NCBI GenBank assembly: GCA_013791855.1
Contig: VMTA01000004.1
Location: forward strand, 1-64,000
Reading direction: 5' to 3'
Length of the DNA: 64,000 nt
Source: Sideroxydans sp.
GTDB taxonomy: Bacteria; Pseudomonadota; Gammaproteobacteria; Burkholderiales; Gallionellaceae
A program made the position numbers and the translations under genes. Under the pieces are notes generated by a model. It worked only from the letters and a program-made list of their open reading frames with translations, had not been told where the DNA came from and searched no databases. Below, piece by piece: positions 7,106 through 40,544 of the stretch. The stretch's first letter is position 1; each line of letters opens with the position of its first letter.

Positions 7106-7423
7106 TCAGCCGATCGCAGCGGCCAGCGCCGCCGCAAGACTTTCAACACCGTTCCAATCCATGACCAGATCGCCCGCGCGCAGGGCGACATGCATGCCGG
7201 ACTCCTGCGCCGTGCCAACGAAGGCATCGTCACTGGCGATGGGACTCATGTAGATCTCGCGTTCGGGGCTGATGCCGCGACTGACGGCAACCAGCGCGAG
7301 CGACAGGCTGGAAGCCTCGGCGGGGGTGAGGCGCAGCTCGATGTCATCGGCGAAACGCAGACGGATCTGCTGGCCCATCACGCGATGCTGCACACTCGCC
7401 ACCGTGTAGCGTTGCTCAGGCAT
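7106..7423 (-). CDS. Small unknown protein coupled to the ankyrin gene
   Basis: 105 aa, beginning MPEQRYTVASVQHRV. The longer upstream frame reads through the ankyrin gene and is rejected. The start lies inside the end of the ankyrin gene (8-bp overlap), indicating translational coupling. It is soluble, with no signal peptide, cysteines or recognisable catalytic motif. I do not recognise the family. Its position at the 3' end of the nif accessory block suggests, but does not prove, a role with the ankyrin protein. It converges with the TPR-PDZ gene with only 4 bp between stop codons. Confidence 0.6.
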   Translation of the reverse strand: MPEQRYTVASVQHRVMGQQIRLRFADDIELRLTPAEASSLSLALVAVSRGISPEREIYMSPIASDDAFVGTAQESGMHVALRAGDLVMDWNGVESLAAALAAAIG

Positions 7424-7886
7424 GCTCGGTGCGCTTGGTGTCTTTGAGCAAGCGCAGACACGCCAGATCGGCGGCCAGCTCCAGCGCGGTGAAATCGTCG
7501 TGCGTCTGCAGTTCGGTGTTCGCACCCGCTTCCAACAACAGTTTCACCAATGGGGATTTACCTGCCGAGGCGCAGTAGATCAGCGCGGTCGCGCCGTTCA
7601 CGTTCTGCGTGTCCAGCGGCGCGCCGGCCTTGATGAGCTCGGCAACGCATGCCGCGTTGTCGGAATAGCAGGCGAACCACAATGCGCCGTTACGGTCGGC
7701 GTTCAGCATGGCCGGGTCGGCACCGCGCTTGAGCAGCGATCTGACCACATCCAGATCGCCGGTCTGCGCGGCATACATCAAGGGCGTGGTGCTGTTCGCC
7801 AGTGGGCGGTTGATGTCGGTCTCCACCGGGTCGCTGACATGGAATCTGGCCTGGGCCAGCCAGCAGCGGAGTTGATTGTCGTTCAT
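7416..7886 (-). CDS. Ankyrin-repeat protein
   Basis: 156 aa with three to four ankyrin repeats (about residues 30-62, 64-95, 97-128, and a partial last unit). Diagnostic pieces are STTPLMYAAQTGDLDVVRSL, NGALWFACYSDNAACVAELI and GATALIYCASAGKSPLVKLL. There is no signal peptide, so it should be a cytosolic protein-protein interaction module. A strong Shine-Dalgarno (GGAAAGGAAC) supports the start. It lies 123 bp downstream of the SagB-type gene on the same strand; small ankyrin proteins are found in several betaproteobacterial nif regions, but the partner is unknown. Confidence 0.8.
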   Translation of the reverse strand: MNDNQLRCWLAQARFHVSDPVETDINRPLANSTTPLMYAAQTGDLDVVRSLLKRGADPAMLNADRNGALWFACYSDNAACVAELIKAGAPLDTQNVNGATALIYCASAGKSPLVKLLLEAGANTELQTHDDFTALELAADLACLRLLKDTKRTEHA

Positions 7887-8009: not shown

Positions 8010-9545
8010 TCATGCGTAGGCGGGTAGGGTGGAGATGCGTGCATCCTCCAGCGCCATGCCGACGGCGTAGTGATATATCACCTGAAACTGTGTGTCTTTT
8101 AAGCCGATCACTTCATGGTCGGCATCGTCGAAGAAACAGCCGATACCGGTGCCGCGCCAACCGGCGGCTTCGGCTTCCAGTGTGATGATGTGGCCCAGCA
8201 TGCCCGCTTCCCAATGCAGATGACGGTAGGCGGCGGGATCGGCTGCGATGGGCGCGGCAAACTCGGCCACCATCATGAAGGTGACGGCGCAATGTGTGGC
8301 GATGTCTTGATGACATGACAAAGTGCGCGCGGTCTTGCCTGCGCGTGCGGCGATCAGTTGATATAGCGGTAGTTCATCATCGGCGCGTTGCCAAGTGAAG
8401 CTGTCACGCATCGCGGCGCGCAAGGAAGCGACGGCAGACTCGGCACGCGGCAATACATACACGCCGGGCGCAACACCTTCAACGCGATGCACCAGCAACA
8501 CCGGATGCACGCGCGGTGTATGCGGCCACAGATTCCACACCGGCGAACCACCTGCTAGCAGTGCGTTCAGCATATGTTTGAGCAGCGCGTGCGGCATCAC
8601 CGACTCGCCATCAAACGCCTGCGCGCTGCGCCGTTTGAGGATGACTTGCGTGGCGCGGATGTCGGCGGCATCGACTTGAATAGAGGCGGTCTGCGGGTAT
8701 GCAGAAGTCGCTGGTGCTGCGCCGCGTGTCGCTGCGGCGACTTCTTCGATCACCGGCCATTGGTACAGCGGTCGCGGATCGAGCAGGCTGGGCGTGCCCG
8801 CGTAGTGCTGCCATGTCGTGGCGGGTGCGTTCTCATCCGCATGCAGCGCCACGATCACTTCCGCTTCTTCCGCTTCCACGTTTGCAAAATCCTCGGCGCG
8901 ATCAACGCCGAGCGCCTGTGCGACCTCGTTGGCATCCAGGCTTAACAAGTGCGGCCGCCAGCCATGCAGCGCTGCCGCGTAACTCACCGCCGCCAGCACA
9001 TGCCCCATATCGAGCTGGCAATAGCGGAAGGCGCGTTCGCCGTATTTCCACGCTTCGCGCCAGTGGATGGAACTGAAGCCCAGCCACACACCGGGCGCGG
9101 AGGCTTCATCGTTCCAGGCGCGGCGTTCGAGCGCGTGAAGCAGGTTTTGATAGTGGTGCAGGCCGTCGGTGATGCCGGGCACTTGCGAGGTGATGAGCCA
9201 ACTTTCGGTGGGATGCAGATTTCCGGAAGAAGGATGCGCGCGCAGCGACCAGCGCGCAGCGCCGTATTCTTTCCATGCGGTGAGGCCGAGCGAGAGACGG
9301 AAGAATGAGCCGAGGCTGTGCGCATCGAACGGCAAAGGTTCACGCTTCGCAGCAAGTTCACCCCATGCGATGTCGCCCGCCAACACCTCGCGCGACAACA
9401 CAGTCTGCGCGCAGCCTGTCCAATCGCGGAACGCTTTGGGCTGTGCCTCCCAGTCCAGTGTGCCGGGGCCTGCAGCGTAGCGATCCAGTGCGTGTTTGCT
9501 GCGCGCGTGATATGCCATCACGAGAGCAGCGCGCGGATCCACCAT
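8010..9545 (-). CDS. SagB/ThcOx-type double nitroreductase-family protein
   Basis: 511 aa, about twice the length of a single nitroreductase domain. The N-terminal half (about 85-260) has RAHPSSGNLHPTESWL, the usual SagB-family signature around the FMN site; the C-terminal half (about 300-500) repeats the fold (VILKRRSAQAFDGE...WEAGMLGHIITLEAEAAGWRGTGIGCFFDD). Members are FMN oxidoreductases; SagB/ThcOx enzymes oxidise azolines in peptide maturation, but no precursor peptide or YcaO partner is present here. It starts two bases after the NifZ-like stop codon, so it belongs to the SIR2-hemerythrin-NifZ operon. The likely job is a redox reaction in nitrogenase support; substrate unknown. Confidence 0.8.
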   Translation of the reverse strand: MVDPRAALVMAYHARSKHALDRYAAGPGTLDWEAQPKAFRDWTGCAQTVLSREVLAGDIAWGELAAKREPLPFDAHSLGSFFRLSLGLTAWKEYGAARWSLRAHPSSGNLHPTESWLITSQVPGITDGLHHYQNLLHALERRAWNDEASAPGVWLGFSSIHWREAWKYGERAFRYCQLDMGHVLAAVSYAAALHGWRPHLLSLDANEVAQALGVDRAEDFANVEAEEAEVIVALHADENAPATTWQHYAGTPSLLDPRPLYQWPVIEEVAAATRGAAPATSAYPQTASIQVDAADIRATQVILKRRSAQAFDGESVMPHALLKHMLNALLAGGSPVWNLWPHTPRVHPVLLVHRVEGVAPGVYVLPRAESAVASLRAAMRDSFTWQRADDELPLYQLIAARAGKTARTLSCHQDIATHCAVTFMMVAEFAAPIAADPAAYRHLHWEAGMLGHIITLEAEAAGWRGTGIGCFFDDADHEVIGLKDTQFQVIYHYAVGMALEDARISTLPAYA

Positions 9546-9547
9546 CC

Positions 9548-9817
9548 TTAGTTCAGTCCGCTCAATTCGTCAGTCAGACAACCGATGGGTTCGCCCAGCG
9601 TGCCCTCGGCATTGATCTCGAAGCGCACCAGATAGATCTCTTCGTCCGGCAGTTCCTTGGCGTGACCGACGTTGACCACCACGCCGCGCGTACCGGCCGC
9701 GGCCAGCAATGCGCCCACCGCCACATCGGGGATGCCGCTCTCGCCGGTCTCTTCCATCGGTTCGTTGAAAAGGTCGTATGCGGCGAACACCATATCGCCC
9801 ATGTTGTACATGCTCAT
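9548..9817 (-). CDS. nifZ: NifZ-family protein
   Basis: 89 aa. The core GVVVNVG...EEIYLVRFE...LGEPIGCLTDEL matches the SH3-like NifZ fold, which helps mature the second P-cluster of NifDK in Azotobacter. The N-terminal part (MYNMGDMVFAAYDLFNE) also fits the usual opening of NifZ, where the strand following MG-D starts the barrel. The ATG overlaps the hemerythrin stop (ATGA) and the stop is two bases before the SagB-type start, so translation is coupled on both sides. Assignment rests on these short motifs, so some uncertainty remains. Confidence 0.72.
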   Translation of the reverse strand: MSMYNMGDMVFAAYDLFNEPMEETGESGIPDVAVGALLAAAGTRGVVVNVGHAKELPDEEIYLVRFEINAEGTLGEPIGCLTDELSGLN

Positions 9818-10218
9818 ACCGTCTCCTTCTGTTTCTTCAGGTGCATCGCCAATGCCGCGTCCATCATCGCGACGTGCGTGTCGAACCAGTCCATCAGGCC
9901 TTCCTTCACATAGGCACGCACCAGCGGCAGGTGACCGCGCTTGAGGCTGCGGTTGAGCTGTTGCATCTCGCCCAGCACGCGGTGATGCTCGCCTTCGTGT
10001 TCCGGCAGGCCGCGATATTTCGATTCGCGCATCAGTTTACCCTCTGCGATGAAATGTTCACGCGTATGTGCCACCAGCGTCTGGAACAGCGCGGGGAACT
10101 CGGCCGGACTGGCGGCGTTGAGCGCGGCCACCTGCGCGATGAATTCGCGGTGCGTGTCGTCGAACTCCGCCATACCTATCGTATGGCGCGCGTCGTCCCA
10201 TACAGCCGGATGCGTCAT
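9814..10218 (-). CDS. Bacteriohemerythrin
   Basis: 134 aa single-domain hemerythrin. The di-iron ligand pattern is visible: H in DDTHREF (about residue 23), HTREHF (about 50-55), HEGEHHRVL (about 73-81) and WFDTHVAMMD (about 111-120). It should bind O2 reversibly, or sense it, in the cytosol. The start overlaps the SIR2-like stop codon by four bases and its own stop overlaps the NifZ-like start. In a nif accessory operon, O2 buffering or delivery control to protect nitrogenase is the simplest inference. Confidence 0.9.
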   Translation of the reverse strand: MTHPAVWDDARHTIGMAEFDDTHREFIAQVAALNAASPAEFPALFQTLVAHTREHFIAEGKLMRESKYRGLPEHEGEHHRVLGEMQQLNRSLKRGHLPLVRAYVKEGLMDWFDTHVAMMDAALAMHLKKQKETV

Positions 10219-11072
10219 GCAGCTTCCAGTGTGGTGTTCACGCCCTGTGCCGCGCTGAGGAAGTCGGTCACATCGGCGTTCACGATCTCGATGTTGAGAC
10301 GGTCGAGGTAGCGTTTCTCCTTGTCGGTCGGATGCGGGATCAGCGCCCAGCCTGCTGGCTTGTCCGCGCCGAAGATGATGTCGGAGAACACCATGCGGTC
10401 GGTGTCTCGGTTCAGGCGCAGGCCCAGTGTCACGTAGCGTTTGTTCTGGCGCGAGCGCTTGATGAAGGACGGGATGGCGAAGCCGCCCATCAGCTCTGTG
10501 ATGTAGTCGACGAAGTCGGCGTCGGACGCGATGTAGTTCGATTCCGGTGTGGGCGTTCCCAAGGGTTTGAACAGGATGGGCAGGCTGCTGTCGACCGCTT
10601 CCTGTTCGACGGAGGTGTAGCTGGTGCCGTCGTAATGGAACAGGCGGAAGCGGAATGCCGTGCCAGACATGCGCGCGATGCCCACCACCAGCGTGTGCGG
10701 TGTGCCCGCATATTGCAGTTGCATCTGCGTGTCACGATTGGCATCGATCATGTAGGGCAGCTTCTGCTCTCCCAGCCAGGCATGCAGGGGCGAGGTGCTC
10801 CACTTTGTGTCTTTATAGGTCGCGTCGAGGAAGTTGTTCACTGCCTTGCGGCCGCGCTTCAATTCGATGTTCATCGCCGCGCGCGGGAATTCGTACATCA
10901 GCTTCGGTGCCATCGGCTGGCCGTTGTTCATCGCCAGAATCAGGCTGTCGCTGTCGGCGGGGATCGCTTTGCCGGTCGGGTCGGTCACGCCGTTCAGCGC
11001 GCCGGGCCCGAGGTAAGGTATGACGCTACCATCGCGCAGGCCGGAAAAGATGTCGTCGAATGCAGTGCTCAT
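10215..11072 (-). CDS. SIR2-like domain protein, first gene of a nif accessory operon
   Basis: 285 aa. The N-terminus (SGLRDGSVIPYLGPGAL) resembles the opening of SIR2-like Rossmann domains (the GAGAS-type NAD loop), but the canonical catalytic His and zinc-finger cysteines of deacetylase sirtuins are not evident. The rest has no motif I can name. It starts with a CAGGAG Shine-Dalgarno and is preceded by a sigma54-type promoter (11110-11125). It is the first of four overlapping genes (SIR2-like, hemerythrin, NifZ-like, SagB-type). Biochemical role unknown; NAD binding or hydrolysis is possible. Confidence 0.68.
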   Translation of the reverse strand: MSTAFDDIFSGLRDGSVIPYLGPGALNGVTDPTGKAIPADSDSLILAMNNGQPMAPKLMYEFPRAAMNIELKRGRKAVNNFLDATYKDTKWSTSPLHAWLGEQKLPYMIDANRDTQMQLQYAGTPHTLVVGIARMSGTAFRFRLFHYDGTSYTSVEQEAVDSSLPILFKPLGTPTPESNYIASDADFVDYITELMGGFAIPSFIKRSRQNKRYVTLGLRLNRDTDRMVFSDIIFGADKPAGWALIPHPTDKEKRYLDRLNIEIVNADVTDFLSAAQGVNTTLEAA

Positions 11073-11109
11073 GGGGTGTGACTCCTGTCAGTAGGGATGC
11101 CATACCATT

Positions 11110-11125
11110 CGCAATAATCGCGCCA
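11110..11125 (-). promoter_or_regulatory. Sigma54 (-24/-12) promoter for the SIR2-hemerythrin-NifZ-SagB operon
   Basis: On the minus strand the sequence reads TGGCGC-GATTA-TTGC, one mismatch from TGGCAC-N5-TTGC with exact GG-N10-GC spacing. It is 38 bp upstream of the first start codon. No perfect TGT-N10-ACA NifA site was found upstream; a one-mismatch version (GGT-N10-ACA, ending near 11186) lies about 50-60 bp further up, overlapping the hairpin there. Confidence 0.7.
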
Positions 11126-11179
11126 GCCATGCGAAGCCTGTAACAGCGGGGTTTGTAGGGCAGGGAACTTGGTAGCAAA

Positions 11180-11206
11180 CCCGACAAAGGCCAAGCCGTT
11201 GTCGGG
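11180..11206 (-). terminator. Hairpin/terminator after the Fe-S protein gene
   Basis: CCCGACAA and TTGTCGGG form a perfect 8-bp stem, 28 bp beyond the Fe-S gene stop. The T tail on the minus strand is short (TTTGCT), so termination may be partial. It separates the GST/Fe-S pair from the SIR2-led operon. Confidence 0.5.
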
Positions 11207-12616: not shown

Positions 12617-13230
12617 ACCCGGTAACCTTCTTCCATCAACACCCTGCGCACCGCAGGGCGTTGCAACATGCGCCGGTAATGCGCCAAGCAATTCGGAGGC
12701 AGTTCCAGCTTGATCTTGTCCGCCCAGAACTCCACATAGAACAAGGCCGCATCGGCGATGCTGAAACTGCCGACGACGTATTCCTTGCCAGCTAATACGT
12801 CGTTCATCAGCGCAAGCCCCTTACTCACGATCTCGCGCCCGCGCGCCTGGATCGCCGCGTGTTCGGCTGTGTTGGGTGAATAATTCTCGGTAGTGAAGAT
12901 GCGCGTGTAGCCGGAACCGTGGATCGTGCCCACCACGTAATCCAGCGTTTCAATCACCCGCACCTCGCCCTCGATGTCATCCGGTAGCAACTTCGCTTTG
13001 GGATATGCACGTGCCAGCCACCATGCGATGGCCTGGAATTCGGTGATGACCGAACCGTCGTCGCGCACCAGCGTCGGGATGGTGCCCTTGGGATTCACCG
13101 CCAGATTCACCGGCCGCAGATGATCGCCCGCCATCAGATTCACCAGAGTCACCTCGAACACCAGCTCCAGTTCTTCGAGCAGGATATGGATACCGGTCGA
13201 GCAAGAGCCGGGCGTCATGTAGAACTTCAT
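12613..13230 (-). CDS. Glutathione S-transferase family protein
   Basis: 205 aa from the ATG at 13230 (MKFYMTPGSCSTGIHILLEE). The thioredoxin-like N-domain has the catalytic-loop pattern near residues 5-15 and the cis-Pro/Glu-Ser-type segment (GTIPTLVRDDGSVITEFQAI); the helical C-domain ends YRRMLQRPAVRRVLMEEG. GST-like genes are recurrent companions of nif clusters; a role in thiol or cofactor protection is plausible but untested. Its stop overlaps the Fe-S protein start. A TGT-N10-ACA sequence (13282-13297) lies just upstream, but I found no matching sigma54 promoter. Confidence 0.85.
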   Translation of the reverse strand: MKFYMTPGSCSTGIHILLEELELVFEVTLVNLMAGDHLRPVNLAVNPKGTIPTLVRDDGSVITEFQAIAWWLARAYPKAKLLPDDIEGEVRVIETLDYVVGTIHGSGYTRIFTTENYSPNTAEHAAIQARGREIVSKGLALMNDVLAGKEYVVGSFSIADAALFYVEFWADKIKLELPPNCLAHYRRMLQRPAVRRVLMEEGYRV

Positions 13231-15174: not shown

Positions 15175-16065
15175 TTAGTACGCCGCAATACTCACCTCAT
15201 ACACACCGCCCACCACGGTGTACTCGTCCTCCCCCTGCAACATCCCGGGTAGCAATCTCGTGTAGCAGAACACTTTCGACAACGGCACTTGTGCGGTGAG
15301 CAGGTGGTCGCCGAATTCGTCGGCGCGTTCGCGGTTGGCGGTGAAGGAGTTGAGGTTGTTGAGCAGGACGATGCGGTGATTGTTGTCCAGCGTGGCGAGA
15401 GTCTCGTGTTCGTCCATGCGGTTTGCGCCGCGATATAGCGTGAGGTGTGTCTGGCCGGGATGCTGTCTTGTGAGTTCGTATTGGCAGTAGGTGTAGAGCA
15501 GGTCGAACTGGGATTCGAGGGCGTTGGTGCCGTACAGGGCGGTTGCGCGTTTCTCCAGGTAGCCTCGGTATGCCTCGCCGGAGAAGTCTCTGATCTGTCC
15601 GCCGTGGTGTCTGGGCAGCAAGCCGAACCTTGATTCCACCCAGCCTTTCAACGCCGCGCCTTCCGTGCCGTCCGAATCGAAACTCCAGCCGCGCATCATG
15701 CGCAGGTAGTCGGCCTTTTGCCGTTTGTGCAGGGTGCTGTCGGTGTAGCCCGCTTGTTCCGGTTGGTCCAGATAGAACGATGCATTCATATGGATGCTGA
15801 ATGCGCGGGCGCGTTCGTTTGCATCGTCCAGCTTATCCAGTAGTTCGAACAATCCGCGATGGAACTGCGCGACGCCGTCGAGTTCGAGCGGCACGGGGGC
15901 GCGCTGGAAGGTGAGGCCGCCGAGGATGTCGGCGGGCAGATTGCAGCGGTTGATGGGCAGGCGGGCGTAGCGCGGCAGGCTTGTCGTTACTCCTACAAAG
16001 CGCTCGTCCTTGTTGTGTTCCCCATCCCCTTTGTGGGTTTGCGCTTGAGTGGAATTACGTTTCAT
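15175..16065 (-). CDS. draT: Dinitrogenase reductase ADP-ribosyltransferase
   Basis: 296 aa from the ATG at 16065; the longer frame uses a TTG and overlaps the nifH promoter, so it is rejected. The segment NRCNLPADILGGLTFQRAPVPLELDGV is the hallmark DraT N-terminus, and the internal YRGANR and NNLNSFTANRERADEFGD segments fit the ADP-ribosyltransferase NAD site. DraT adds ADP-ribose to the cluster-side Arg of NifH to switch nitrogenase off on ammonium or energy stress. It is divergent from nifH. The partner hydrolase gene draG is not adjacent and not in this window. No clear Shine-Dalgarno is seen. Confidence 0.9.
   Translation of the reverse strand: MKRNSTQAQTHKGDGEHNKDERFVGVTTSLPRYARLPINRCNLPADILGGLTFQRAPVPLELDGVAQFHRGLFELLDKLDDANERARAFSIHMNASFYLDQPEQAGYTDSTLHKRQKADYLRMMRGWSFDSDGTEGAALKGWVESRFGLLPRHHGGQIRDFSGEAYRGYLEKRATALYGTNALESQFDLLYTYCQYELTRQHPGQTHLTLYRGANRMDEHETLATLDNNHRIVLLNNLNSFTANRERADEFGDHLLTAQVPLSKVFCYTRLLPGMLQGEDEYTVVGGVYEVSIAAY
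15982..15997 (+). promoter_or_regulatory. NifA upstream activator site for nifH
   Basis: TGT-CGTTACTCCT-ACA matches the NifA consensus TGT-N10-ACA exactly and sits 98 bp upstream of the -24 element, the usual distance for looping activation. It lies within the first codons of the divergent draT gene. Confidence 0.85.
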
Positions 16066-16094
16066 TTCAGTCGCTTGGGGTTTTGTAAGGGGGG

Positions 16095-16110
16095 TGGCAC
16101 AGAGCTTGCG
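16095..16110 (+). promoter_or_regulatory. Sigma54 promoter of nifHDK
   Basis: TGGCAC-AGAGC-TTGCG is a perfect -24/-12 element. Transcription should begin near 16121, about 58 bp before the nifH ATG. Confidence 0.95.
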
Positions 16111-16151
16111 ATGTAAAGGGTGCGAGCGAGAGAACTTCAATCGCGACTTAA

Positions 16152-17051
<900 letters not shown>

Positions 17052-17064
17052 TGTGATGTTGTAA

Positions 17065-17086
17065 CGGCGGGTCATCCGGCCCGCCG
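17065..17086 (+). repeat. Hairpin between nifH and nifD
   Basis: CGGCGGG and CCCGCCG form a 7-bp GC stem 13 bp after the nifH stop, with no T tail. In other nif operons such hairpins stabilise the nifH 3' end and raise NifH over NifDK; that role is inferred here. Confidence 0.55.
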
Positions 17087-17136
17087 CTCTCTCTAACACT
17101 GGGCTCCACAGATTGGTGGGCCATAAGGAGAATGAA

Positions 17137-18585
17137 ATGACAGCAATGACCAGAGAAGAGACTCAGGCCCTCATTCAAGAGGTGCTCGAGGTCTATCCAG
17201 AGAAAGCACGTAAAGATCGCGAGAAGCATCTCGCCGTCAACGATCAATCTGTTGAACAGTCCAAGAAGTGCATCACTTCCAACCGCAAATCTTTGCCGGG
17301 TGTGATGACGATTCGTGGTTGCGCATACGCCGGTTCCAAAGGTGTGGTGTGGGGCCCGATCAAGGACATGATCCATATTTCACACGGCCCGGTCGGCTGC
17401 GGTCAGTATTCCCGCGCCGGTCGCCGTAACTACTACGTTGGTACAACCGGCGTAAACGCTTTCGGCACCATGAACTTCACTTCTGACTTCCAGGAGAAAG
17501 ACATTGTGTTCGGTGGCGACAAGAAACTTGCCAAGCTGATCACCGAGATCGAAGGCCTGTTCCCGCTGCACAAAGGTATCTCGATCCAGTCCGAGTGCCC
17601 GATCGGTCTGATCGGTGACGACATCGAAGCCGTCTCCAAGAAGGCAGCTAAGGAAATCAACAAGCCAGTCGTTCCGGTGCGTTGCGAAAGTTTCCGTGGC
17701 GTGTCGCAATCGCTGGGTCACCACATCGCTAACGATGCGATCCGTGATTGGGTGTTGGGCAACCGCGATGAAAGCAAGTTCGAATCCACACCTTACGACG
17801 TGACCATCATCGGCGACTACAACATCGGCGGTGACGCTTGGGCAACTCGTACGATCCTGGAAGAGATGGGTCTGCGCGTGATCGCTCAGTGGTCCGGCGA
17901 CGGTACATTGGCTGAAATGGAAAACACACCCAAGGCCAAGCTGAACCTGCTGCACTGCTATCGCTCGATGAACTACATCAGCCGCCACATGGAAGAGAAG
18001 TATGGCATTCCTTACATGGAATACAACTTCTTCGGCCCGACCAAGATCGAGAACTCGCTGCGTGAGATCGCTGCTTTCTTCGACGACACCATCAAGGCTA
18101 ACACCGAGAAGGTCATCGCCAAGTACAAGCCGATGATGCAAGCCGTGATCGACAAGTACAAGCCGCGACTGGAAGGCAAACGCGTCATGTTGTACGTGGG
18201 TGGTCTGCGTCCGCGTCACGTGATCGGTGCTTATGAAGACCTGGGCATGGAAGTGGTCGGTACAGGTTACGAGTTCGGTCACAACGACGACTACGACCGC
18301 ACCATCAAGGAAATGGGTAACGCCACACTGTTGTATGACGATGTCACCGGCCTCGAGTTCGAAGAGTTCGTGAAGCGCGTCAAGCCCGACCTGGTCGGCT
18401 CCGGCATCAAGGAAAAGTTCATCTTCCAAAAGATGGGCATCCCCTTCCGCCAGATGCACTCGTGGGACTACTCCGGCCCGTATCACAGCTACGACGGCTT
18501 CGCCATCTTCGCTCGCGATATGGATATGACCTTGAACAATCCTTGCTGGAGCCAACTGACTCCGCCCTGGAAAAAGGCCGCGTAA
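17137..18585 (+). CDS. nifD: Nitrogenase molybdenum-iron protein alpha chain
   Basis: 482 aa from the ATG at 17137 (AAGGAG upstream). P-cluster ligands are recognisable in [16 protein letters not shown] and SECPIGLIG. The FeMo-cofactor ligands are Cys in [10 protein letters not shown] and His in [12 protein letters not shown]. Together these identify a molybdenum NifD and not the shorter VnfD/AnfD types. It forms the alpha2beta2 dinitrogenase with NifK. The longer frame start at 17113 is rejected because the ribosome site precedes 17137. Confidence 0.98.
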
Positions 18586-18593
18586 TGTACTGA

Positions 18594-18613
18594 AGCCGGA
18601 CTCCGGTCCGGCT
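18594..18613 (+). repeat. Hairpin between nifD and nifK
   Basis: AGCCGGAC-TCCG-GTCCGGCT is a perfect 8-bp stem with a tetraloop, 8 bp after nifD, with no T tail. It may stabilise mRNA ends or tune nifK. Confidence 0.5.
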
Positions 18614-18667
18614 AACCCTTAACGATGCTCGCGTCCGCAGATTGGCGGCCGAGCCAAGGAGATAAAC

Positions 18668-20236
18668 ATGCAAAAAGTCGATGACATCAAGCCTTGCTAT
18701 CCTCTGTTCCGTCAGGACGAGTACAAGGATTCACTGGCCAACAAAAAAGCGAAGTTCGAAGAAGGTCACGCCGACGCCAAGGTCCAAGAGACCTTCGCTT
18801 GGACGACCACGATGGAATATCGTGAACTGAACTTCAAACGCGAAGCCCTGACCGTTAACCCGGCCAAGGCCTGCCAGCCACTCGGCGCCGTGCTGTGTGC
18901 GTTGGGCTTCGAAAAGACCATGCCGTATGTGCACGGTTCGCAAGGTTGCGTGGCGTACTTCCGTACCTACTTCAACCGTCACTTCCGCGAGCCCGTGTCT
19001 TGCGTATCCGACTCCATGACTGAAGACGCAGCCGTTTTCGGCGGTCAGAAGAACATGATCGACGGTCTGGAAAATGCCATGACCATGTACAAGCCGGACA
19101 TGATCGCTGTTTCCACAACCTGTATGGCTGAGGTGATCGGCGACGACTTGAACGCCTTCATCACCAACACCAAAAAGGCTGGCGGCGTGCCGCAGGAGTT
19201 CCCGACACCTTACGCGCACACCCCGTCTTTCGTGGGTTCGCACGTGACAGGTTGGGACAACATGTTCGAAGGCATCATCCGCTACTTCACGCTGAACACC
19301 ATGGAAGGCAAAGAAGTCGGCAAGAACGGCAAGATCAACATCGTTCCCGGTTTCGAGACTTACCTCGGCAACTACCGCGTGATCCATCGCATGCTGGACG
19401 AGATGGGCGTTGAGCACACCATGCTGTCCGATCCTACCGAAGTGCTGGATACACCGGCCGACGGCGAGTTCCGCATGTATGCAGGCGGAACCACTCAGGA
19501 CGAAGTTAAGGATGCGCCGAACGCCAAGACCACTTTCCTGCTGCAGCCTATGCAACTGGAAAAGACCAAGAAGTTCGTGGAAGGCACCTGGAAGCACGAA
19601 GTGCCGAAGATGGTCATCCCGATGGGTTTGGAGTCCACTGACGAGTTCCTGATGAAGGTCGCGGAAGCTACCGGAAAAGAGATCCCCGCTTCGCTGGCCA
19701 AAGAGCGCGGTCGTCTGGTCGACATGATGATGGATAGCCACACCTGGCTGCACGGCAAGAAGATCAGCCTGTACGGTGATCCCGACTTCACGCTGGGCAT
19801 GACCAAGTTCCTGATGGAGCTGGGCGTCGAGCCGCTGCACGTGCTGTGCAACAACGGCAGCAAGAAGTGGACGAAGGCCATGGAAAAGATGCTGGCCGAG
19901 TCTCCTTACGGTGCGAAGACCCAGTTGTTCGCAGGTGCTGACTTGTGGCACTTCCGCTCACTGGTGCTAACCGAGAAGCCGGACTTCATGATCGGCAACT
20001 CTTACGGCAAGTTCATCCAGCGCGACACACTGCACAAGGGTAAAGAGTTCGAAGTTCCGCTGATCCGTATCGGCTTCCCGATCTTCGACCGTCATCACCT
20101 GCATCGTGCAACAACGCTGGGTTACGAAGGTGCGATGCAAATGCTGACCACCCTGGTGAACGCCGTGATGGAGCGTCTGGACGAGGAAACTCGTGGCATG
20201 GGTACTACCGACTACAACCACGATCTGGTCAGGTAA
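18668..20236 (+). CDS. nifK: Nitrogenase molybdenum-iron protein beta chain
   Basis: 522 aa, the usual length of betaproteobacterial NifK. P-cluster cysteines are visible in AKACQPLGA, HGSQGCVAYF and STTCMAEVIGDD. The sequence between (FRTYFNRHFREPVSCVSDSMTEDAAVFGG) is strongly conserved in NifK. The CAAGGAG Shine-Dalgarno lies just before the ATG. It pairs with NifD. The 82-bp gap to nifD contains a hairpin; the 170-bp gap to nifT contains a long imperfect palindrome. Confidence 0.98.
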   Translation: MQKVDDIKPCYPLFRQDEYKDSLANKKAKFEEGHADAKVQETFAWTTTMEYRELNFKREALTVNPAKACQPLGAVLCALGFEKTMPYVHGSQGCVAYFRTYFNRHFREPVSCVSDSMTEDAAVFGGQKNMIDGLENAMTMYKPDMIAVSTTCMAEVIGDDLNAFITNTKKAGGVPQEFPTPYAHTPSFVGSHVTGWDNMFEGIIRYFTLNTMEGKEVGKNGKINIVPGFETYLGNYRVIHRMLDEMGVEHTMLSDPTEVLDTPADGEFRMYAGGTTQDEVKDAPNAKTTFLLQPMQLEKTKKFVEGTWKHEVPKMVIPMGLESTDEFLMKVAEATGKEIPASLAKERGRLVDMMMDSHTWLHGKKISLYGDPDFTLGMTKFLMELGVEPLHVLCNNGSKKWTKAMEKMLAESPYGAKTQLFAGADLWHFRSLVLTEKPDFMIGNSYGKFIQRDTLHKGKEFEVPLIRIGFPIFDRHHLHRATTLGYEGAMQMLTTLVNAVMERLDEETRGMGTTDYNHDLVR

Positions 20237-34871: not shown

Positions 34872-36278
34872 ATGCAAGCCAAGGACATCGCCGAACTGCT
34901 GAACGAACCGGCCTGTACGCATAACAAGAAGGAGAAATCCGGTTGTGCGCGTCCCAAGCCCGGGGCGACTGCGGGCGGCTGCTCGTTCGACGGGGCGCAG
35001 ATCGCTTTGCTGCCTATCGCAGACGTTGCACATATCGTGCACGGGCCGATCGCCTGTGCAGGCAGTTCCTGGGACAACCGCGGCACACGTTCTTCCGGGC
35101 CGACTTTGTATCGCATCGGTATGACCACCGACCTCACCGAGCAGGATGTGATCATGGGGCGCGGCGAGAAGCGTTTGTTCCATGCCATCAAGCAGGCGGT
35201 CGATTCCTATTCCCCCAAGGCAGTCTTTGTCTACAACACCTGCGTGCCTGCGCTGACCGGCGACGACATCAGCGCGGTGTGCAAGGCCGCTGCCGAGAAG
35301 ACCGGCGTGCCGGTGGTGCCGGTGGACTGTGCCGGTTTCTACGGCACGAAGAATCTGGGCAACCGCATCGCCGGTGAGGCGATGTTCAAATATGTGGTGG
35401 GGACGGGCGAACCTTTGCCGGTGCCTGATGAATTGCAGCGTCCCGGCATCACCGTGCACGATGTGAACCTGATCGGCGAATACAACATCGCGGGTGAGTT
35501 CTGGAACGTGGCACCGTTGTTCGACGAACTGGGGCTGCGCATCCTGTGCACTTTGTCCGGCGATGCGCGCTTCCACGAAGTGCAGACCATGCACCGCGCC
35601 GAAGCCAGCATGGTGGTATGCGCCAAGGCCTTGCTCAACATCGCACGCAAACTGCAAGCCGATCACAAGGTGCCGTTCTTCGAAGGCAGCTTCTACGGCG
35701 TGACCGATACCTCGAATGCCTTTAGAGATTTTGCCAAGCTGCTGAACGACCCTTCGCTTACCGAGCGCACCGAGGCGATGATCGTGCGCGAGGAAGCCAA
35801 GATCAACGCCGAGCTCGACCCGTGGCGCGCGAAGCTGCGTGGCAAGCGTGTGTTGCTCTACACCGGCGGCGTGAAGTCGTGGTCCATCGTTTCTGCCTTG
35901 CAGGATTTGGGCATGGACGTGGTCGCCACCGGCACCAGCAAATCCACCGAGGAAGACAAGGCGCGCATCCGCGAGATCATGGGCGACAAGACCAAGATGA
36001 TCACCGACGGCAGCCCCAAGGCGCTGCTCGGCGTGGTGAAGGAATACCAGGCCGACATCCTCATCGCGGGCGGCCGCAACATGTACACCGCGCTCAAGGC
36101 GCGCATCCCTTTCCTCGACATCAATCAGGAACGTGAATTCGGTTACGAGGGTTACAGCGGCATGGTGGAACTCGCACGCCAATTGGCGCTGACGATACAG
36201 AGTCCGGTGTGGGCGAGTGTGCGCAAGACTGCGCCGTGGGCGAAGTCATCCGTCCCAGGCATCGAATTGGGAGCATGA
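34872..36278 (+). CDS. nifE: Nitrogenase iron-molybdenum cofactor biosynthesis protein NifE
   Basis: 468 aa. NifE hallmarks are the N-terminal [41 protein letters not shown], and [17 protein letters not shown], whose cysteines hold the NifEN cluster. NifEN is the scaffold on which the NifB-cofactor is converted to FeMo-cofactor. nifN begins one base after the nifE stop. A sigma54 promoter and NifA site precede the gene, so it is a separate nif transcription unit from nifHDK. Confidence 0.97.
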
Positions 36279-36279
36279 C

Positions 36280-37773
36280 ATGGCCGAGATACTGAAACGC
36301 AACAAAGCACTCGCGGTGAATCCGCTCAAGGCCAGCCAGCCGGTCGGTGCGTCGCTCGCCTTCCTCGGCATCAACAAGGCCATCCCGATGATGCACGGTT
36401 CGCAGGGCTGCACCGCGTTCGGCAAGGTGTATTTCGTGCGCCACTTCCGCGAGCCGATCCCGCTGCAGACCACGGCGATGGATCAGGTATCCACGGTGAT
36501 GAGCGCGGACGAGAACGTGATCCTGGGTCTGGCGACCATCTGCGAGAAGAGCAAGCCGGCGCTGATCGGGCTGCCGACGACAGGCTTGTCGGAGACGCAA
36601 GGCACGGACATCAAACGTCTGGTGCGGGATTTCTACATCGCGCATCCCGAGTTCGCGCACATCCCGGTGGTGCCGGTGAACACGCCGGATTTCACCGGCT
36701 GTCTGGAGAGCGGTTATGCGCTGGCGGTGAAGGCGACACTGGAAGTGATGTTGCCGAAAAGCGGCCCTCACCCTAACCCTGATGGAACTACTAGCCATTC
36801 GACTAAGCCCGCAAGCGGGCAAGTCGCTGGTTATCTCCCGCAAGCGGGCGAGGGGGCGAACGCGAAAAGCAATGTTGGACGCCGCAAGAAGCAGGTCAAC
36901 GTGTTGGCCGGTTCTTTCCTCACGCCGGGCGATGTGGAGCACATCAAGGAACTGATCGAGGCATTCGGTCTGCGTCCGCTGGTATTGCCGGACATCGGCG
37001 ATTCGCTCGACGGTCATCTCACCGAGATGGAAAGCTCGCCGCTCACCGTGGGCGGTACGCCGGTGAGCGACATCGCTAGCATGGGCGAATCCATCGCCAC
37101 GTTGGTGCTGGGTAATTCGCTGTTCGATGCGGCGGACGTCCTCAAGACGCAGACCGGCGTGCCGGACTATCGCTTCGACTGCCTGATGGGTTTGGAGGCG
37201 GTGGACAGTTTCGTCGCCGCGCTGGCTGAGATCAGCGGCAAGCCGGTGCCGGAGAAGCTCGAACGCCAGCGCGCGCAGTTGCAGGACGCGATGGTGGATG
37301 TGCATTTCATGCTGGGCTTTGCGCGCGTCGCCATCGCGGCGGATGCCGATCTGCTCTACGGCTTCTCGCGGCTGGTGACGGAGATGGGCTGCGAGGTGGT
37401 GGCCGCTGTCGCACCGGCGCGCGCCAACATTCTGCAGAGCGTGCTGGCGGAGCAGGTGGCCATCGGCGATCTGGAAGACCTGGAGATAGCGGCCAAGCGC
37501 AAAGGCGCGCAATTGGTGATCAGCAATTCGCACGCGCTTGAAACGGCGCGCCGTCTCGGTGTGCCGCTGCTGCGCGCGGGCTTCCCGCAATACGACCTGC
37601 TCGGCGGATATCAGCGCCTGTGGGTGGGCTATCGCGGCACGCGCCAGTCGTTGTTCGATCTGGCGAACCTGCTGGTGGAGCACGGACACATCGAGCCGGA
37701 GCCGTATGTCTCCATCTATGCACAGCGGACAGGAGAAAGTCGTGCGACACCTGCGTCTGGTCAAACCCACTGA
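36280..37773 (+). CDS. nifN: Nitrogenase iron-molybdenum cofactor biosynthesis protein NifN
   Basis: 497 aa, about 40 longer than usual for NifN. The core is normal: [47 protein letters not shown] and the [21 protein letters not shown] segment. Residues about 162-198 are a Pro/Gly/Ser/Thr-rich insertion ([19 protein letters not shown] and following) encoded by a palindromic repeat at 36763-36866, kept in frame. It lies at a loop where NifN length varies, so the protein may still work. NifN pairs with NifE. The nifX start lies within its last codons. Confidence 0.95.
36763..36866 (+). repeat. Palindromic repeat inserted in frame within nifN
   Basis: CCCTCACCCTAACCCT opens and TCTCCCGCAAGCGGGCGAGGG-type sequence closes the element, a form seen as a common intergenic repeat in proteobacteria; a second hairpin (GCCCGCAAGCGGGC) lies inside. 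Both read through as codons of nifN. Confidence 0.75.
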
Positions 37774-38194
37774 GGAGACAGCGATGACAGTGAAGATCGC
37801 ATTCGCCACCAGCGACCGCAAGGCGGTGAACCAGCATTTCGGCGCGGCGGAGGCATTCGCCATCTACGAGGTGAGCGAGACGGACGCGAAGCTGATCGAG
37901 GTGGCCGAGTTCATCGAGACCGCGATGGACGGGCATGAAGGCAAGTTGGCGGCAAAGGTAGAGCTGCTCGGCGATTGTGCAGCGGTGTATTGCAACGCGG
38001 CGGGTGCATCCGCGATCCAGCAATTATTGGCGGGCGGCATCCAGCCGATGCGCGTGGATGAAGGGTTGTGCATCGACGGTCTGCTGAGCGGTTTGCAGCA
38101 GAGCATGGTGAGCGAGCCGCCGGTGTGGCTGACGAAATATCTGAAGAAGAAATCGAGCAAGAGCTTCGCGGACGACGAGGAGTGGCAGGAATGA
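37742..38194 (+). CDS. nifX: NifX, FeMo-cofactor carrier protein
   Basis: 150 aa from a GTG at 37742 with AGGAGA upstream; this gives the RHLRLVKP N-terminus common in NifX. An ATG at 37784 with GGAG is an alternative. The NifX/NifB-C domain is clear ([27 protein letters not shown], with [25 protein letters not shown]). It binds NifB-cofactor or VK-cluster and carries it to NifEN. It overlaps nifN by 32 bp and rseC by four bases. Confidence 0.92.
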
Positions 38195-38631
38195 TCAGCG
38201 CACCGGTACGCGTGATCGCTGTGCAGAACCGTGTGGCGCAGGTGATGCCCACCGAGAAGTCCGGCTGCGGCGGTTGCGCATCGCGCGAGTCGTGCGGCGT
38301 GTCGGGCTTGGGCAAATATTTCTCATCTCGGCGCAAGACCATAGGCGTGGCATGCGATGCACACGTGCGCGCGGGTGATGAGTTGCAGTTGTCGCTGAGC
38401 GAGGGTGATCTGGTCAAGGCCGGGCTGCTGGCTTATCTGTTTCCGTGCGTGACGGCGGTGACCGGCGCGGCACTCGCTTCGGGATATGGGGATGTCGGTT
38501 CGGCAGTGGGCGCGGCCGTCGGCGCAGCAAGCGGTTTCGTTTTGGCGCGCGTGTCCAGCTGGACGCCGCGTGTGAGTGTGAAAAGCGAAAGGCAATTTGC
38601 CACAGAGAACACAGAGGTCACAGAGCGATAG
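38191..38631 (+). CDS. rseC: RseC/SoxR-reducing-type membrane protein with repeat-derived tail
   Basis: 146 aa from the ATG that overlaps the nifX stop. The N-terminus has CGGCASRESCG (a Cys-rich site as in RseC), followed by two hydrophobic helices at about 70-95 and 100-118. In E. coli RseC helps an Rnf-type complex reduce SoxR; in nif clusters it may relate to electron supply to nitrogenase. The last 15 or so residues (SERQFATENTEVTER) are encoded by the left arm of a palindromic repeat (38599-38625), so the original C-terminus was altered or extended. Confidence 0.82.
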   Translation: MISAPVRVIAVQNRVAQVMPTEKSGCGGCASRESCGVSGLGKYFSSRRKTIGVACDAHVRAGDELQLSLSEGDLVKAGLLAYLFPCVTAVTGAALASGYGDVGSAVGAAVGAASGFVLARVSSWTPRVSVKSERQFATENTEVTER

Positions 38632-38736
38632 GCGGGACTTCGTTCTTTCTTCATGTCATCTCTAAAGCAGAAGTCGACTTGCAGGAATGGTTGAGTGGCA
38701 GCTGGACTTCTCTGTGGTCTCTGTGTGCTCTGTGGC
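38599..38736. repeat. Inverted-repeat (MITE-like) element between rseC and DUF269
   Basis: Arms 38599-38625 and 38710-38736 are 27 bp, 24 of 27 complementary (GCCACAGAG, ACACAGAG and CACAGAG blocks), around an 84-bp centre. This CACAGAG-type palindrome is a common dispersed repeat in betaproteobacteria. It separates nifX-rseC from the downstream nif genes. Confidence 0.75.
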
Positions 38737-38771
38737 TAAAAAGGTTTTGAACTTAACAAAGGAGAAACACC

Positions 38772-39233
38772 ATGAATCAGGCAGTCGCAGCAGATCCGTT
38801 GTTGTCCACCGATTTCATCCAGGAGATGGTCAAGCAGATGCGCGCCGTCGACAGCTACGGCACGTATGACGGCTGGCCCGCCGAGCGCGTGCTGGCGCCG
38901 TATGTGCTGACCAAGGAACAGAAACGCGAGATCCCGATCATCGGCGATCCTGACGAGATCCTGCTGTCACGCATCAAGTGTTTCTATAACGCGGTCGCTT
39001 CACTGATCGAAAAGGAATGCGGTCTGATGGCGGTGCCGATGATCAACATCACGCACGAAGGTTTCGGCCGTGGCGTGATCACCGTCGGCAAGCTGGTGGT
39101 GATGGACAAGACATTGCGTGACGTGCACCGCTACGGTTACGAGAGTCTGTCCAAGATGAAGGACGAAGGCGACAAGCTGCTCTCAGTCGCGCTGGAGATC
39201 ATCGGCAAGCACCCGGATGTTGCGGGTCTGTGA
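38772..39233 (+). CDS. NifX-associated nitrogen fixation protein (DUF269)
   Basis: 153 aa. The family pattern is clear from AVDSYGTYDGWPAERVLAPYVLTKEQKREIPIIGDPDEI to the GFGRGVITVGKLVVMDKTLRDVHRYG segment, both strongly conserved in DUF269 proteins located next to nifX. Its role is not established; it is assumed to act in FeMo-cofactor assembly or transfer. An AAAGGAGAAACACC ribosome site precedes the ATG. It follows a palindromic element, so translation may be independent of rseC. Confidence 0.93.
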   Translation: MNQAVAADPLLSTDFIQEMVKQMRAVDSYGTYDGWPAERVLAPYVLTKEQKREIPIIGDPDEILLSRIKCFYNAVASLIEKECGLMAVPMINITHEGFGRGVITVGKLVVMDKTLRDVHRYGYESLSKMKDEGDKLLSVALEIIGKHPDVAGL

Positions 39234-39262
39234 GTGCCGGGTACTGAGTAACGGAGTCAGAG

Positions 39263-39475
39263 ATGAATGAAGACGAACTGAAAGCACTCGACAAGGAAGT
39301 GAAGAAGCTCAAGCGCATCTCCACGGAGTGGGCGGGGCAATTGCACGATCTGGTCGAGGATAAGTTGCCGGCGGGCTACAAGGAGCTGCCGGGCATCGCG
39401 CAATCCACTTACGATGCTTGCCAGGCATGGGCCGAGGCGAGCGCAAGATTATCCGAAGCACAGAAGGAAGCATGA
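39263..39475 (+). CDS. CCE_0567/DUF683-family small metalloprotein
   Basis: 70 aa, two helices, typical of DUF683 proteins encoded between DUF269 and FdxB in nif operons (KALDKEVKKLKRISTEWAGQLHDLVEDKLPAGYKEL). Cyanothece CCE_0567 of this family forms a helical bundle with metal bound. Function unknown. Its stop is followed by fdxB after 2 bp (or overlaps it if the upstream ATG is used). Confidence 0.9.
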   Translation: MNEDELKALDKEVKKLKRISTEWAGQLHDLVEDKLPAGYKELPGIAQSTYDACQAWAEASARLSEAQKEA

Positions 39476-39477
39476 CC

Positions 39478-39768
39478 ATGTCAAACATCACTGGCGTCAC
39501 CCGAGGTGGCACCCCTTACGAACCGACTTTCGTCACCGAACTGAATCCGGCCAACTGCATCGGCTGCGGGCGCTGTTTCAAAGTCTGCCCGCGCAGCGTG
39601 TTCGAGCTGCTGGAGCGCGACGAGGATGACGAGAATTACGACGAAGACGAAGACAACATGATGGTGATGTCCATCGCGAATGCGCTGGATTGCATCGGCT
39701 GCGGATCGTGCGCACGTGTCTGTCCCAAGCAATGCCACACGCATCAAGCGATGCCGGTAGGAGCCTGA
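39478..39768 (+). CDS. fdxB: Ferredoxin III, nif-specific (FdxB)
   Basis: 96 aa from the ATG at 39478, which has AAGGAAG at good spacing; an ATG at 39472 would add two residues and overlap the previous stop. Two [4Fe-4S] sites are visible: CIGCGRCFKVCP and CIGCGSCARVCP, with an acidic insertion between them (DEDDENYDEDEDNM). The opening TGVTRGGTPYEP is standard for FdxB. It likely transfers electrons during cofactor assembly or to nitrogenase. Confidence 0.93.
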   Translation: MSNITGVTRGGTPYEPTFVTELNPANCIGCGRCFKVCPRSVFELLERDEDDENYDEDEDNMMVMSIANALDCIGCGSCARVCPKQCHTHQAMPVGA

Positions 39769-39769
39769 T

Positions 39770-40093
39770 ATGCCAAAACCAACCAGACATGTATTCGTGT
39801 GTTCGCAGAATCGTCCCGCCGGTCATCCGCGCGGTTCATGCGGCGCAAAGGGTTGCGCGGCCGTGGTGGACGAGTTCATGCAGCAATGGCAGCAGCGCCA
39901 GTGTTTCGCCGAAGTGGCCGTGACACCGACCGGCTGCATCGGCCCGTGCGGTATGGGGCCGAACGTGCTGGTCTATCCGGAAGGCGTGATGTACTGCAAC
40001 GTGACCAAGGAAGATGTGAGCGCGATATTCGACGAGCATCTGCTGGGCGGCACGCCGGTCGAGCGGCTGAAGGCGCCTGCCGACATATGGTAG
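39770..40093 (+). CDS. Thioredoxin-like [2Fe-2S] ferredoxin
   Basis: 107 aa. Thioredoxin-fold ferredoxin with Cys in HVFVCSQNRP and GAKGC at the N-terminal side and CIGPCGMGPNVLVYPEG on the other, the four-Cys pattern of this family (also found in Azotobacter nif-linked FeSII-like and Clostridium ferredoxins). Should act as a one-electron carrier. One base separates its start from fdxB's stop, so the two are coupled. Its stop overlaps the next gene's start region by a few bases. Confidence 0.9.
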   Translation: MPKPTRHVFVCSQNRPAGHPRGSCGAKGCAAVVDEFMQQWQQRQCFAEVAVTPTGCIGPCGMGPNVLVYPEGVMYCNVTKEDVSAIFDEHLLGGTPVERLKAPADIW

Positions 40094-40461
40094 TGCTGGA
40101 CACATCGCGGCAGTTGCCTGCCGCGTTGGAGGCGGTGGCGAAACGTATCGTCATCGCCTTGCAGTTGGAGGCCGAGCGTTTCACCGCGACCGGTGCTGCG
40201 CCTTACATAGACCTCGCAGCGGCGCAGTTCACCCGCGTGGTCGATCCAGCCAACCAGTTGCCGGGTTACGAAGGCGTGTGGCGCAACGCGCGCAAGGAGC
40301 GTTGCGGCAGCATCAATTTCAACAGTGACGGTAGCTTCTTCGCCGAGTACGACATGTTCTGCCCGCATCCGCGCGATGCGCGCTGGTTCGTGGAAATGGT
40401 CACCGTCTGGGGTAACACCGATCACATCAGCAGCGAAGCGACGCTGATCCCCGCCCTGTAA
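40087..40461 (+). CDS. Small unknown protein in the nifE operon
   Basis: 124 aa from the ATG at 40087, which overlaps the end of the ferredoxin gene. It has Arg/Phe-rich soluble content with CGSINFNSDGSFFAEYDMFCPHP and WFVEMVTVWGN as conspicuous segments. I do not recognise the family. The long frame that starts at 39799 reads through the ferredoxin gene and is rejected. Its coupling to the ferredoxin suggests a linked role in electron transfer or cofactor assembly, unproven. Confidence 0.6.
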   Translation: MVVLDTSRQLPAALEAVAKRIVIALQLEAERFTATGAAPYIDLAAAQFTRVVDPANQLPGYEGVWRNARKERCGSINFNSDGSFFAEYDMFCPHPRDARWFVEMVTVWGNTDHISSEATLIPAL

Positions 40462-40544
40462 GCCGACGCGCCACGAAATCGGGCGAACGGCTATGATGCG
40501 CACCGTTCGCGGCAGCTGTGCCGCAGTGCTGGAAGGTGGGCATC

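Follow-up and report, generated by a model that had tools for sequence, protein, structure and literature searches.

The closest described counterpart of the locus that we analyze here is pnfA (PST1325) of Pseudomonas stutzeri A1501, which was reported in 2010 to be needed for full microaerobic nitrogenase activity (PMC2820453). PnfA of P. stutzeri is a 31.7 kDa protein with close homologs in diazotrophs only, and a second subfamily was published at 20% identity (PMC2820453). The gene lies opposite nifHDK, it has a -24/-12 element and a TGT-N10-ACA site, and its activation depends on NifA and sigma54 (PMC2820453). A non-polar pnfA mutant kept 23% of its nitrogenase activity under microaerobic conditions, and its nifH transcription was normal; anaerobically without nitrate, the mutant was similar to the wild type, and nitrate-supported activity was lost (PMC2820453). 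We analyzed a 64,000-nucleotide stretch of DNA from Sideroxydans sp. (family Gallionellaceae), which we call the window and which corresponds to C5:1-64000 of a 2.55 Mb genome. It contains a minus-strand operon, pnfA-hem-nifZ2-sagB-ank-orf105, whose first gene is most probably a pnfA. Judging from its linkage to nitrogen fixation (nif) genes, the operon very likely supports nitrogenase.

SIR2-like genes, hemerythrins, and nitroreductases have been mentioned in related settings. ZMO1821 of Zymomonas (PMC8594446, PMC8600466), which reportedly increases when N2 is being fixed (PMC8600466), and a gene of Rhodovulum (PMC9412634) are SIR2-like genes in nif clusters. A hemerythrin ("hr") is drawn in the nif cluster of a rhizobial diatom symbiont, as a label in a figure legend (PMC11208148). 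That cluster is like the window in having a hemerythrin gene within a nif cluster, but the passage on it names other neighbors and gives no function (PMC11208148). Elsewhere, hemerythrins are discussed for magnetotaxis (PMC5088516), one appears in an expression table (PMC3188489), and YtfE-type hemerythrins are treated in Fe-S repair (PMC8593673). F420-type nitroreductases are named for Frankia (PMC8951365). We found no paper in the open PMC full texts that treats a SagB or an ankyrin protein as part of a nif cluster (closed journals were outside the search), and we found no biochemistry of the PnfA family.

The original prediction described four overlapping or nearly abutting genes at 8010-11072 on the minus strand, behind a -24/-12 element at 11110-11125. 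The coordinates of the open reading frames (ORFs) agree: pnfA and hem overlap by 4 nucleotides, as do hem and nifZ2, and sagB starts 2 nucleotides past the end of nifZ2. The -24/-12 element is there as well, at 11111-11125. With ank and orf105 added to the original four, the operon has six genes. The features are:

10215..11072, minus strand: pnfA-like gene for a SIR2-type family protein with no conserved SIR2 catalytic histidine (285 amino acids, 31.6 kDa)
9814..10218, minus strand: hem, a single-domain bacteriohemerythrin with the complete seven-ligand di-iron set (134 amino acids)
9548..9817, minus strand: nifZ2, a short NifZ-domain paralog (89 amino acids)
8010..9545, minus strand: sagB-like gene for a protein with two nitroreductase-type halves (511 amino acids)
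7416..7886, minus strand: ank, an ankyrin-repeat protein (156 amino acids), found behind a SagB of the same type in 30 of 31 family loci
7106..7423, minus strand: orf105 (105 amino acids, with the start taken as the ATG at 7423), which overlaps the end of ank
11111..11125, minus strand: -24/-12 (sigma54) promoter element TGGCGCGATTATTGC, which begins 53 nucleotides upstream of pnfA
11171..11186, minus strand: degenerate NifA-type upstream site, TGT-N10-ACC, with one mismatch to TGT-N10-ACA; relatives are similar at the equivalent position
15175..16140, minus strand: draT (ORF limits), between pnfA and nifH
16155..20236, plus strand: nifH-nifD-nifK, divergent from pnfA
34872..40461, plus strand: nifE-nifN-nifX, a NifX-associated gene, a Rop-like gene, a ferredoxin, a thioredoxin-like [2Fe-2S] protein, and an unnamed ORF; in relatives, the nifZ2-sagB-ank-orf105 cassette comes right after this run, which has none here

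The nifHDK genes are 5 kilobases (kb) from the operon, with draT and other genes in between. (Translation of draT probably starts inside this ORF, since the DRAT domain begins only at residue 63.)

Three of the family assignments in the original prediction are each above the curated Pfam or NCBIfam cut-offs. Hem matches PF01814 (30.7 bits, cut-off 25.3) and TIGR02481 (65.9 bits, cut-off 51.75); on NF033749 (bact_hemeryth), it scores 66.9 bits, which is below the cut-off of 84. NifZ2 matches PF04319 with 45.6 bits (cut-off 27), and a stronger NifZ (106.7 bits) is encoded elsewhere in the genome, on contig C8 (G000:C8:9618-9830). NifZ proteins act in P-cluster formation on the MoFe protein. SagB matches the nitroreductase family PF00881 (36.6 bits, cut-off 23.5) and the SagB family TIGR03605 (82.9 bits, cut-off 78.4). 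Its single match among solved structures is 3eo7, a putative nitroreductase whose chain also has 511 residues. Orf105 has no Pfam match above the cut-off.

Our identification of the SIR2-like gene as pnfA is based on its place, its size, its distribution, and its range of identities. As in P. stutzeri, the gene is divergent from nifH and has a -24/-12 promoter, the protein has a mass of 31.6 kDa (31.7 kDa in P. stutzeri), the family is mostly limited to diazotrophs, and there are two subfamilies (PMC2820453). Unlike in P. stutzeri, draT and other genes lie between pnfA and nifH, hem and the cassette lie behind pnfA, and the upstream site is degenerate instead of canonical. From a scan of genome contigs for relatives of the SIR2-like gene, we found 100 and kept 80; the closest named relatives are from Sideroxydans and from other metagenome assemblies of Gallionellaceae. 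We fetched 110 PnfA loci, comprising 87 of subfamily A (at least 50% mutual identity, divergent from nifH) and 23 of subfamily B (no more than 31% identity to A). Counts over the 87 loci, or over the 51 of these with nifH in the stretch, include a few repeats of one genome. In all 51, pnfA is divergent from nifH. The genes of subfamily B are part of runs that contain nifZ, and NifZ is within 6 kb in 21 of the 23 loci. Judging from their descriptions, ZMO1821 and the Rhodovulum gene would belong to subfamily B.

The distribution of PnfA links it to nitrogen fixation. In a sample of 200 genomes from the order, 29 of the 30 genomes with nifD have a PnfA family member, as does 1 of the 170 others (Fisher p ~1e-32, not corrected for kinship). 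The exceptions are G132, with nifD and without the PnfA family, and G135, with the reverse. (The 30 nifD genomes are 29 above the cut-off and one fragment, in G030; weaker matches to relatives of nifD were excluded.) In a sample of 398 genomes from the phylum, the PnfA family is in 18, nifD is in 41, and both are in 15. Three of these genomes contain the PnfA family without a nifD match at 1e-100: G266, G303 (a weak match, 8e-4), and G441, where the PnfA stretch contains a NifZ gene. With the E-value limit of 1e-100, the search of this sample would not pick up nifD genes that are weak or broken. In G266 (contig C3), where nifD was not found at this limit, an unnamed ORF and then an ankyrin gene come after pnfA-hem.

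PnfA relatives are also found on plasmids: 71 records match, all at under 60% identity, and 54 of these are from Rhizobium. Among the 25 plasmid matches listed, 22 are annotated as "SIR2 family protein," two lack a feature at that place, and one record is unannotated. In R. etli Mim1, the PnfA-family gene is behind nifB, a ferredoxin, nifZ, and nifT. The rhizobial plasmid genes, like ZMO1821 and the Rhodovulum gene, resemble the pnfA of the window in sitting in nif clusters. Unlike the pnfA of the window, the plasmid genes are located after nifZ-nifT, and their products are 24-30% identical to the window protein.

To what extent is PnfA a SIR2 protein? The window protein scores 17.9 bits on SIR2_2 (PF13289), below the cut-off of 24.5, and a profile of 75 PnfA relatives matches the NADase KomC (E = 2e-4) and, more weakly, ThsA (E = 0.24 to 0.49). 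The profile supports the SIR2-like label. The 75 rows of the alignment are the window and 74 of the 110 PnfA loci; L146 was left out, as were rows shorter than 250 or longer than 330 amino acids and rows that were at least 90% identical. G22, G172, D114, and G217 are invariant. The Asn-x-Asp of the TxNxD motif is retained as N112 and D114 in all 53 rows of subfamily A, including the window, and position 112 is tryptophan in all 22 rows of subfamily B. The GAGxS motif of SIR2 appears as G[PA]GxL. The HMMER alignment places His146 of KomC (from the entry title, KomC H146N) close to column 148. An alternative register would place it at column 171, if KPLG corresponds to the KLHG-like motif of SIR2_2 proteins. 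At column 148, none of the 75 rows has a histidine, and at column 171, 2 of 75 do, so neither register shows a conserved catalytic histidine. The sole histidine column that is common to both subfamilies is column 97, which aligns with a different histidine of KomC. As far as this alignment indicates, PnfA appears to be a degenerate SIR2-type protein. The original prediction called it possibly NAD-linked; this is weakened by the non-conserved catalytic histidine, although the protein may still bind NAD. We also considered an anti-phage defense role for the SIR2-like gene and rejected it, given its tight linkage to nif genes and the lack of a PADLOC match at E = 0.01. (In the PADLOC search, ank matched general ankyrin models.)

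Sigma54 control of the operon is well supported by the promoter sequences of the relatives, and control by NifA is likely, with partial support. A lone -24/-12 match means little, since TGGC-N7-TTGC has 11 matches across the window when 4.7 are expected. But its position is conserved in relatives, and we rejected a chance promoter on this basis. Using the same 74 loci as the alignment (the length rule removed none), a strict -24/-12 match lies within 150 nucleotides upstream of 21 of the 52 non-redundant subfamily A genes, mostly at -49 to -56, versus an expected 1.4% of random stretches from these loci. TGT-N10-ACA is found within 500 nucleotides in 30 of these 52 loci, versus a background of 11%. 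In subfamily B, -24/-12 matches were found at 0 of 22 loci and TGT-N10-ACA at 1 of 22, which is expected because these genes are inside operons.

The activator site is less clear. There is no canonical TGT-N10-ACA within 500 nucleotides upstream of the window's pnfA. The NifA/sigma54-type label of the original prediction is partly supported: relatives have the -24/-12 element at a similar position, and the activator site carries one mismatch. Among 31 Gallionellaceae-type loci, a perfect TGT-N10-ACA occurs between -400 and -60 in just one, which is at the background level, and these loci keep a TGTCG-type sequence at the usual place of the upstream site. As for other spacers, 6 of the 31 loci have one of 12 (background 7%), and 0 to 2 have one of 8, 9, 10, or 11. 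An inverted repeat at 11180-11206 (minus strand), between a GlpC-like gene and pnfA, overlaps the degenerate site and is kept in Gallionellaceae-type loci; it may be a terminator of the upstream gene or a regulator site. The genome encodes NifA (690 bits joined). By contrast, nifH has a canonical TGT-N10-ACA at 15982-15997 (plus strand) and a -24/-12 element at 16095-16109 (plus strand).

The second gene of the operon encodes a hemerythrin with conserved metal ligands. H23, H55, E59, H74, H78, H115, and D120 are invariant across 52 hemerythrin sequences. We take these to be the seven di-iron ligands (five histidines, a glutamate, and an aspartate), by assignment from solved hemerythrins. A hem gene lies behind pnfA, with its stop within 1.3 kb, in 51 of the 87 subfamily A loci and in 0 of the 23 subfamily B loci. 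With near-copies removed, this is 29 of 52 subfamily A loci.

The other four genes form a separate cassette. SagB has a match in 41 of 150 genomes of Gallionellaceae, and 33 of these are of the window's type (by manual count). We obtained a locus for 31 of the 33; G672 and G686 did not give one. NifZ2 is just upstream of SagB in 31 of 31 loci, and Ank is downstream in 30. The cassette is joined to pnfA-hem in six: the window, G071, G602, G631, G634, and G655. It was conceivable that this gene order would be absent from every other nif cluster, but five other genomes share it. We inspected the cassette's context in 17 of the 25 genomes with loci where it is not joined. In all 17, the cassette is behind nifE, nifN, and genes for a NifX-type protein and a ferredoxin, on the same strand, and an orf105 homolog follows it in 16. 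In three of the 17, pnfA is distant (G578 and G587) or was not found (G593, no PnfA match). The nifENX run of the window (34872-40461) lacks the cassette, and an NMT1-like gene at 40518-41888 (plus strand) is next instead.

In a phylogenetic tree of SagB, the six joined rows form one clade (support 100/99). (Rows under 420 amino acids and L173, which is the window itself, were left out; the "noANK" group contains L182, where the contig stops after SagB.) Because the six form one clade, one relocation is the simplest history: the cassette apparently joined pnfA-hem once, moving from behind nifENX. The original view of four genes as one module holds in part. Both pnfA-hem and the cassette are linked to nif genes, but they are joined in 6 of 31 loci, which makes the module clade-specific. 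The proposed link of these genes to nitrogenase is borne out by the 29 of 30 versus 1 of 170 genomes for PnfA and by the 17 of 17 cassettes behind nifENX.

SagB and Ank are also found together beside nifH in other families. Of the 30 SagB loci in the order sample, Ank is adjacent in 12 of the 15 from nifD genomes and in 0 of the 15 from other genomes. The three nifD-genome loci without Ank are from G197 (at a contig end), G132, and G187. Seven of the 12 SagB-Ank loci (G014, G037, G047, G058, G124, G160, and G196, from five families) are within ~6 kb of nifD, beside nifH. SagB is like the SagB/ThcOx dehydrogenases of azole peptide (TOMM) clusters in scoring above the TIGR03605 cut-off. Unlike those proteins, it is tied to nif genes, and its genome lacks a YcaO partner; with no match to YcaO (PF02624) in the genome, we rejected azole peptide biosynthesis as its role. 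In 7 of the 36 loci that we scanned, SagB has a gene for a thioredoxin-like [2Fe-2S] ferredoxin at a distance of less than 0.9 kb. Four of the seven are from genomes without nifD, one is in a nif genome on another contig (L224), one is on a contig with no nif genes in view (L220), and one is in a nifENX run (L223).

Some of these loci encode another O2-binding protein. In Methylococcus sp. EFPC2, a plasmid of 90 kb carries the nif cluster, and the genes divergent from nifH include a response regulator, a truncated hemoglobin, others, an ArsC-like gene, SagB, GlpE, a hypothetical protein, and an ankyrin gene (locus L286; 9147-9566). This is like the window in having an O2-binding protein in a nif operon along with SagB and ankyrin genes. 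G058 has a globin, SagB, and Ank beside nifH. Plasmids of Paraburkholderia aromaticivorans have a globin beside nifH, two ankyrin genes, and an ArsC-like gene, with no SagB in the stretch. EFPC2 and P. aromaticivorans differ from the window in carrying a globin instead of a hemerythrin. Globins were found in just 4 distinct genomes among all the loci that we searched, so this link is not general. In Nostoc, the gene for GlbN lies between nifU and nifH.

Several other genes lie around the locus. Just upstream of pnfA, at 11234-13281 (minus strand), are a GlpC-like Fe-S oxidoreductase (485 amino acids) and a GST, which recur in several relatives; another GlpC-like gene is behind pnfA in several loci from Methylococcales. 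Two PAS-GGDEF proteins flank nifHDK, at 13608-15125 (plus strand) and 22231-24042 (minus strand). An ORF of 357 amino acids at 24253-25326 (minus strand) has no Pfam or NCBIfam match, and a 56% identical homolog is in the nif region of L223.

We propose that the operon is a sigma54-type nitrogen-fixation unit. The hemerythrin would bind or buffer O2 near nitrogenase under microaerobic conditions. PnfA would influence nitrogenase activity at a post-transcriptional level by binding a nucleotide or a partner, and it would be neither an NADase nor a deacetylase. These two parts fit the published microaerobic phenotype, which makes an O2 role for the operon plausible by analogy (PMC2820453). The cassette would support the maturation or repair of metalloclusters, which fits its place behind nifENX; the NifZ2 paralog might act in P-cluster maturation. 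SagB would be the redox part, presumably with a flavin, and the thioredoxin-like [2Fe-2S] ferredoxin encoded in the nifENX run might supply its electrons; Ank would be an adaptor. Taken as a whole, this explanation has an even chance of being right, in our judgment. A more specific version is tentative, and we rather doubt it: the cassette could be an undescribed maturation or repair unit in which NifZ2 and an ankyrin adaptor dock a flavin redox chaperone that mends or completes oxidized metalloclusters, and which is coupled, depending on the lineage, to a hemerythrin or a truncated hemoglobin and to a PnfA that senses a nicotinamide nucleotide without consuming it.

Several observations weigh against this explanation. 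In the phylum sample, 26 of the 41 nifD genomes lack the PnfA family. No hem is behind pnfA in 36 of the 87 subfamily A loci (some of which are cut by contig ends), which implies that PnfA does not need hem. Similarly, the cassette is apart from pnfA-hem in 25 of the 31 Gallionellaceae examined, so the two need not act in one step. Genomes without nif genes also have SagB relatives, and the nif genomes G132 and G187 have SagB without Ank. Histidine is present at column 146 in 21 of 75 rows and at column 147 in 13 of 75, or in up to 34 rows together; a shifted register could put a histidine in part of subfamily A, so the loss of the catalytic histidine depends on the alignment. Finally, the anaerobic nitrate phenotype of the pnfA mutant fits electron supply or stress from nitrite or nitric oxide (NO) no less well than O2 protection.

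Electron supply is the main rival, and we consider it fairly unlikely. PnfA and SagB would feed or gate reducing power to nitrogenase through a chain of NAD(H), flavin, and [2Fe-2S], and the hemerythrin would be incidental. The authors of the P. stutzeri study offer electron transfer as one option and observed the nitrate-dependent phenotype (PMC2820453); the ferredoxin genes near SagB in 7 of 36 loci and the resemblance of PnfA to an NAD-binding fold also favor it. However, the catalytic histidine of SIR2 is not conserved, subfamily B lacks the asparagine as well, and the cassette is with cofactor-assembly genes in all 17 relatives inspected. We think it quite unlikely that these are merely genes of the nif regulon that were united under a shared promoter by one rearrangement, without a shared function. 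The limitation of the joined arrangement to one clade, with six genomes seen, favors this reading, but pnfA-hem and the cassette are each linked to nif genes independently, and two other genomes also combine SagB and Ank with an O2-binding protein next to nifH.

Two other rivals concern PnfA. SIR2-type proteins handle NAD and ADP-ribose, and ADP-ribosylation uses NAD+, so PnfA might work with DraT and DraG in the post-translational control of NifH. In the window, draT is between pnfA and nifH, and a DraT homolog is encoded in 35 of the 51 loci of subfamily A whose stretch includes nifH. But there is no DraT within 7 kb in the other 16 (including Marinobacterium and Methylococcales; a few are cut by contig ends), and P. 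stutzeri has pnfA, while DraT and DraG were reported as not found there (PMC2820453). We rejected PnfA as a partner of DraT on these grounds, and we regard the idea as very unlikely. That PnfA is an active SIR2 enzyme, whether deacetylase or NADase, seems highly improbable to us. ZMO1821 has been taken as a likely deacetylase (PMC8600466), PnfA is similar to the NADases KomC and ThsA, subfamily A retains N112 and D114, and the histidines at columns 146 and 147 in part of subfamily A temper the argument from histidine loss. Nevertheless, histidine is nearly absent from both of the candidate catalytic columns, GAGxS reads as G[PA]GxL, and PnfA has no PADLOC match at E = 0.01.

As far as the open literature shows, the cassette, its relocation, and the view of PnfA as a degenerate SIR2-type protein are new. 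This view of PnfA leads to concrete tests for a family that is found in nearly all of the nifD genomes of the order (29 of 30). Because the four-gene cassette moved as a unit, and because SagB-Ank recurs near nifH elsewhere, SagB and the ankyrin protein are likely to be nitrogenase accessory factors. Engineering nitrogenase into aerobic hosts requires the complete set of accessory and protective proteins.

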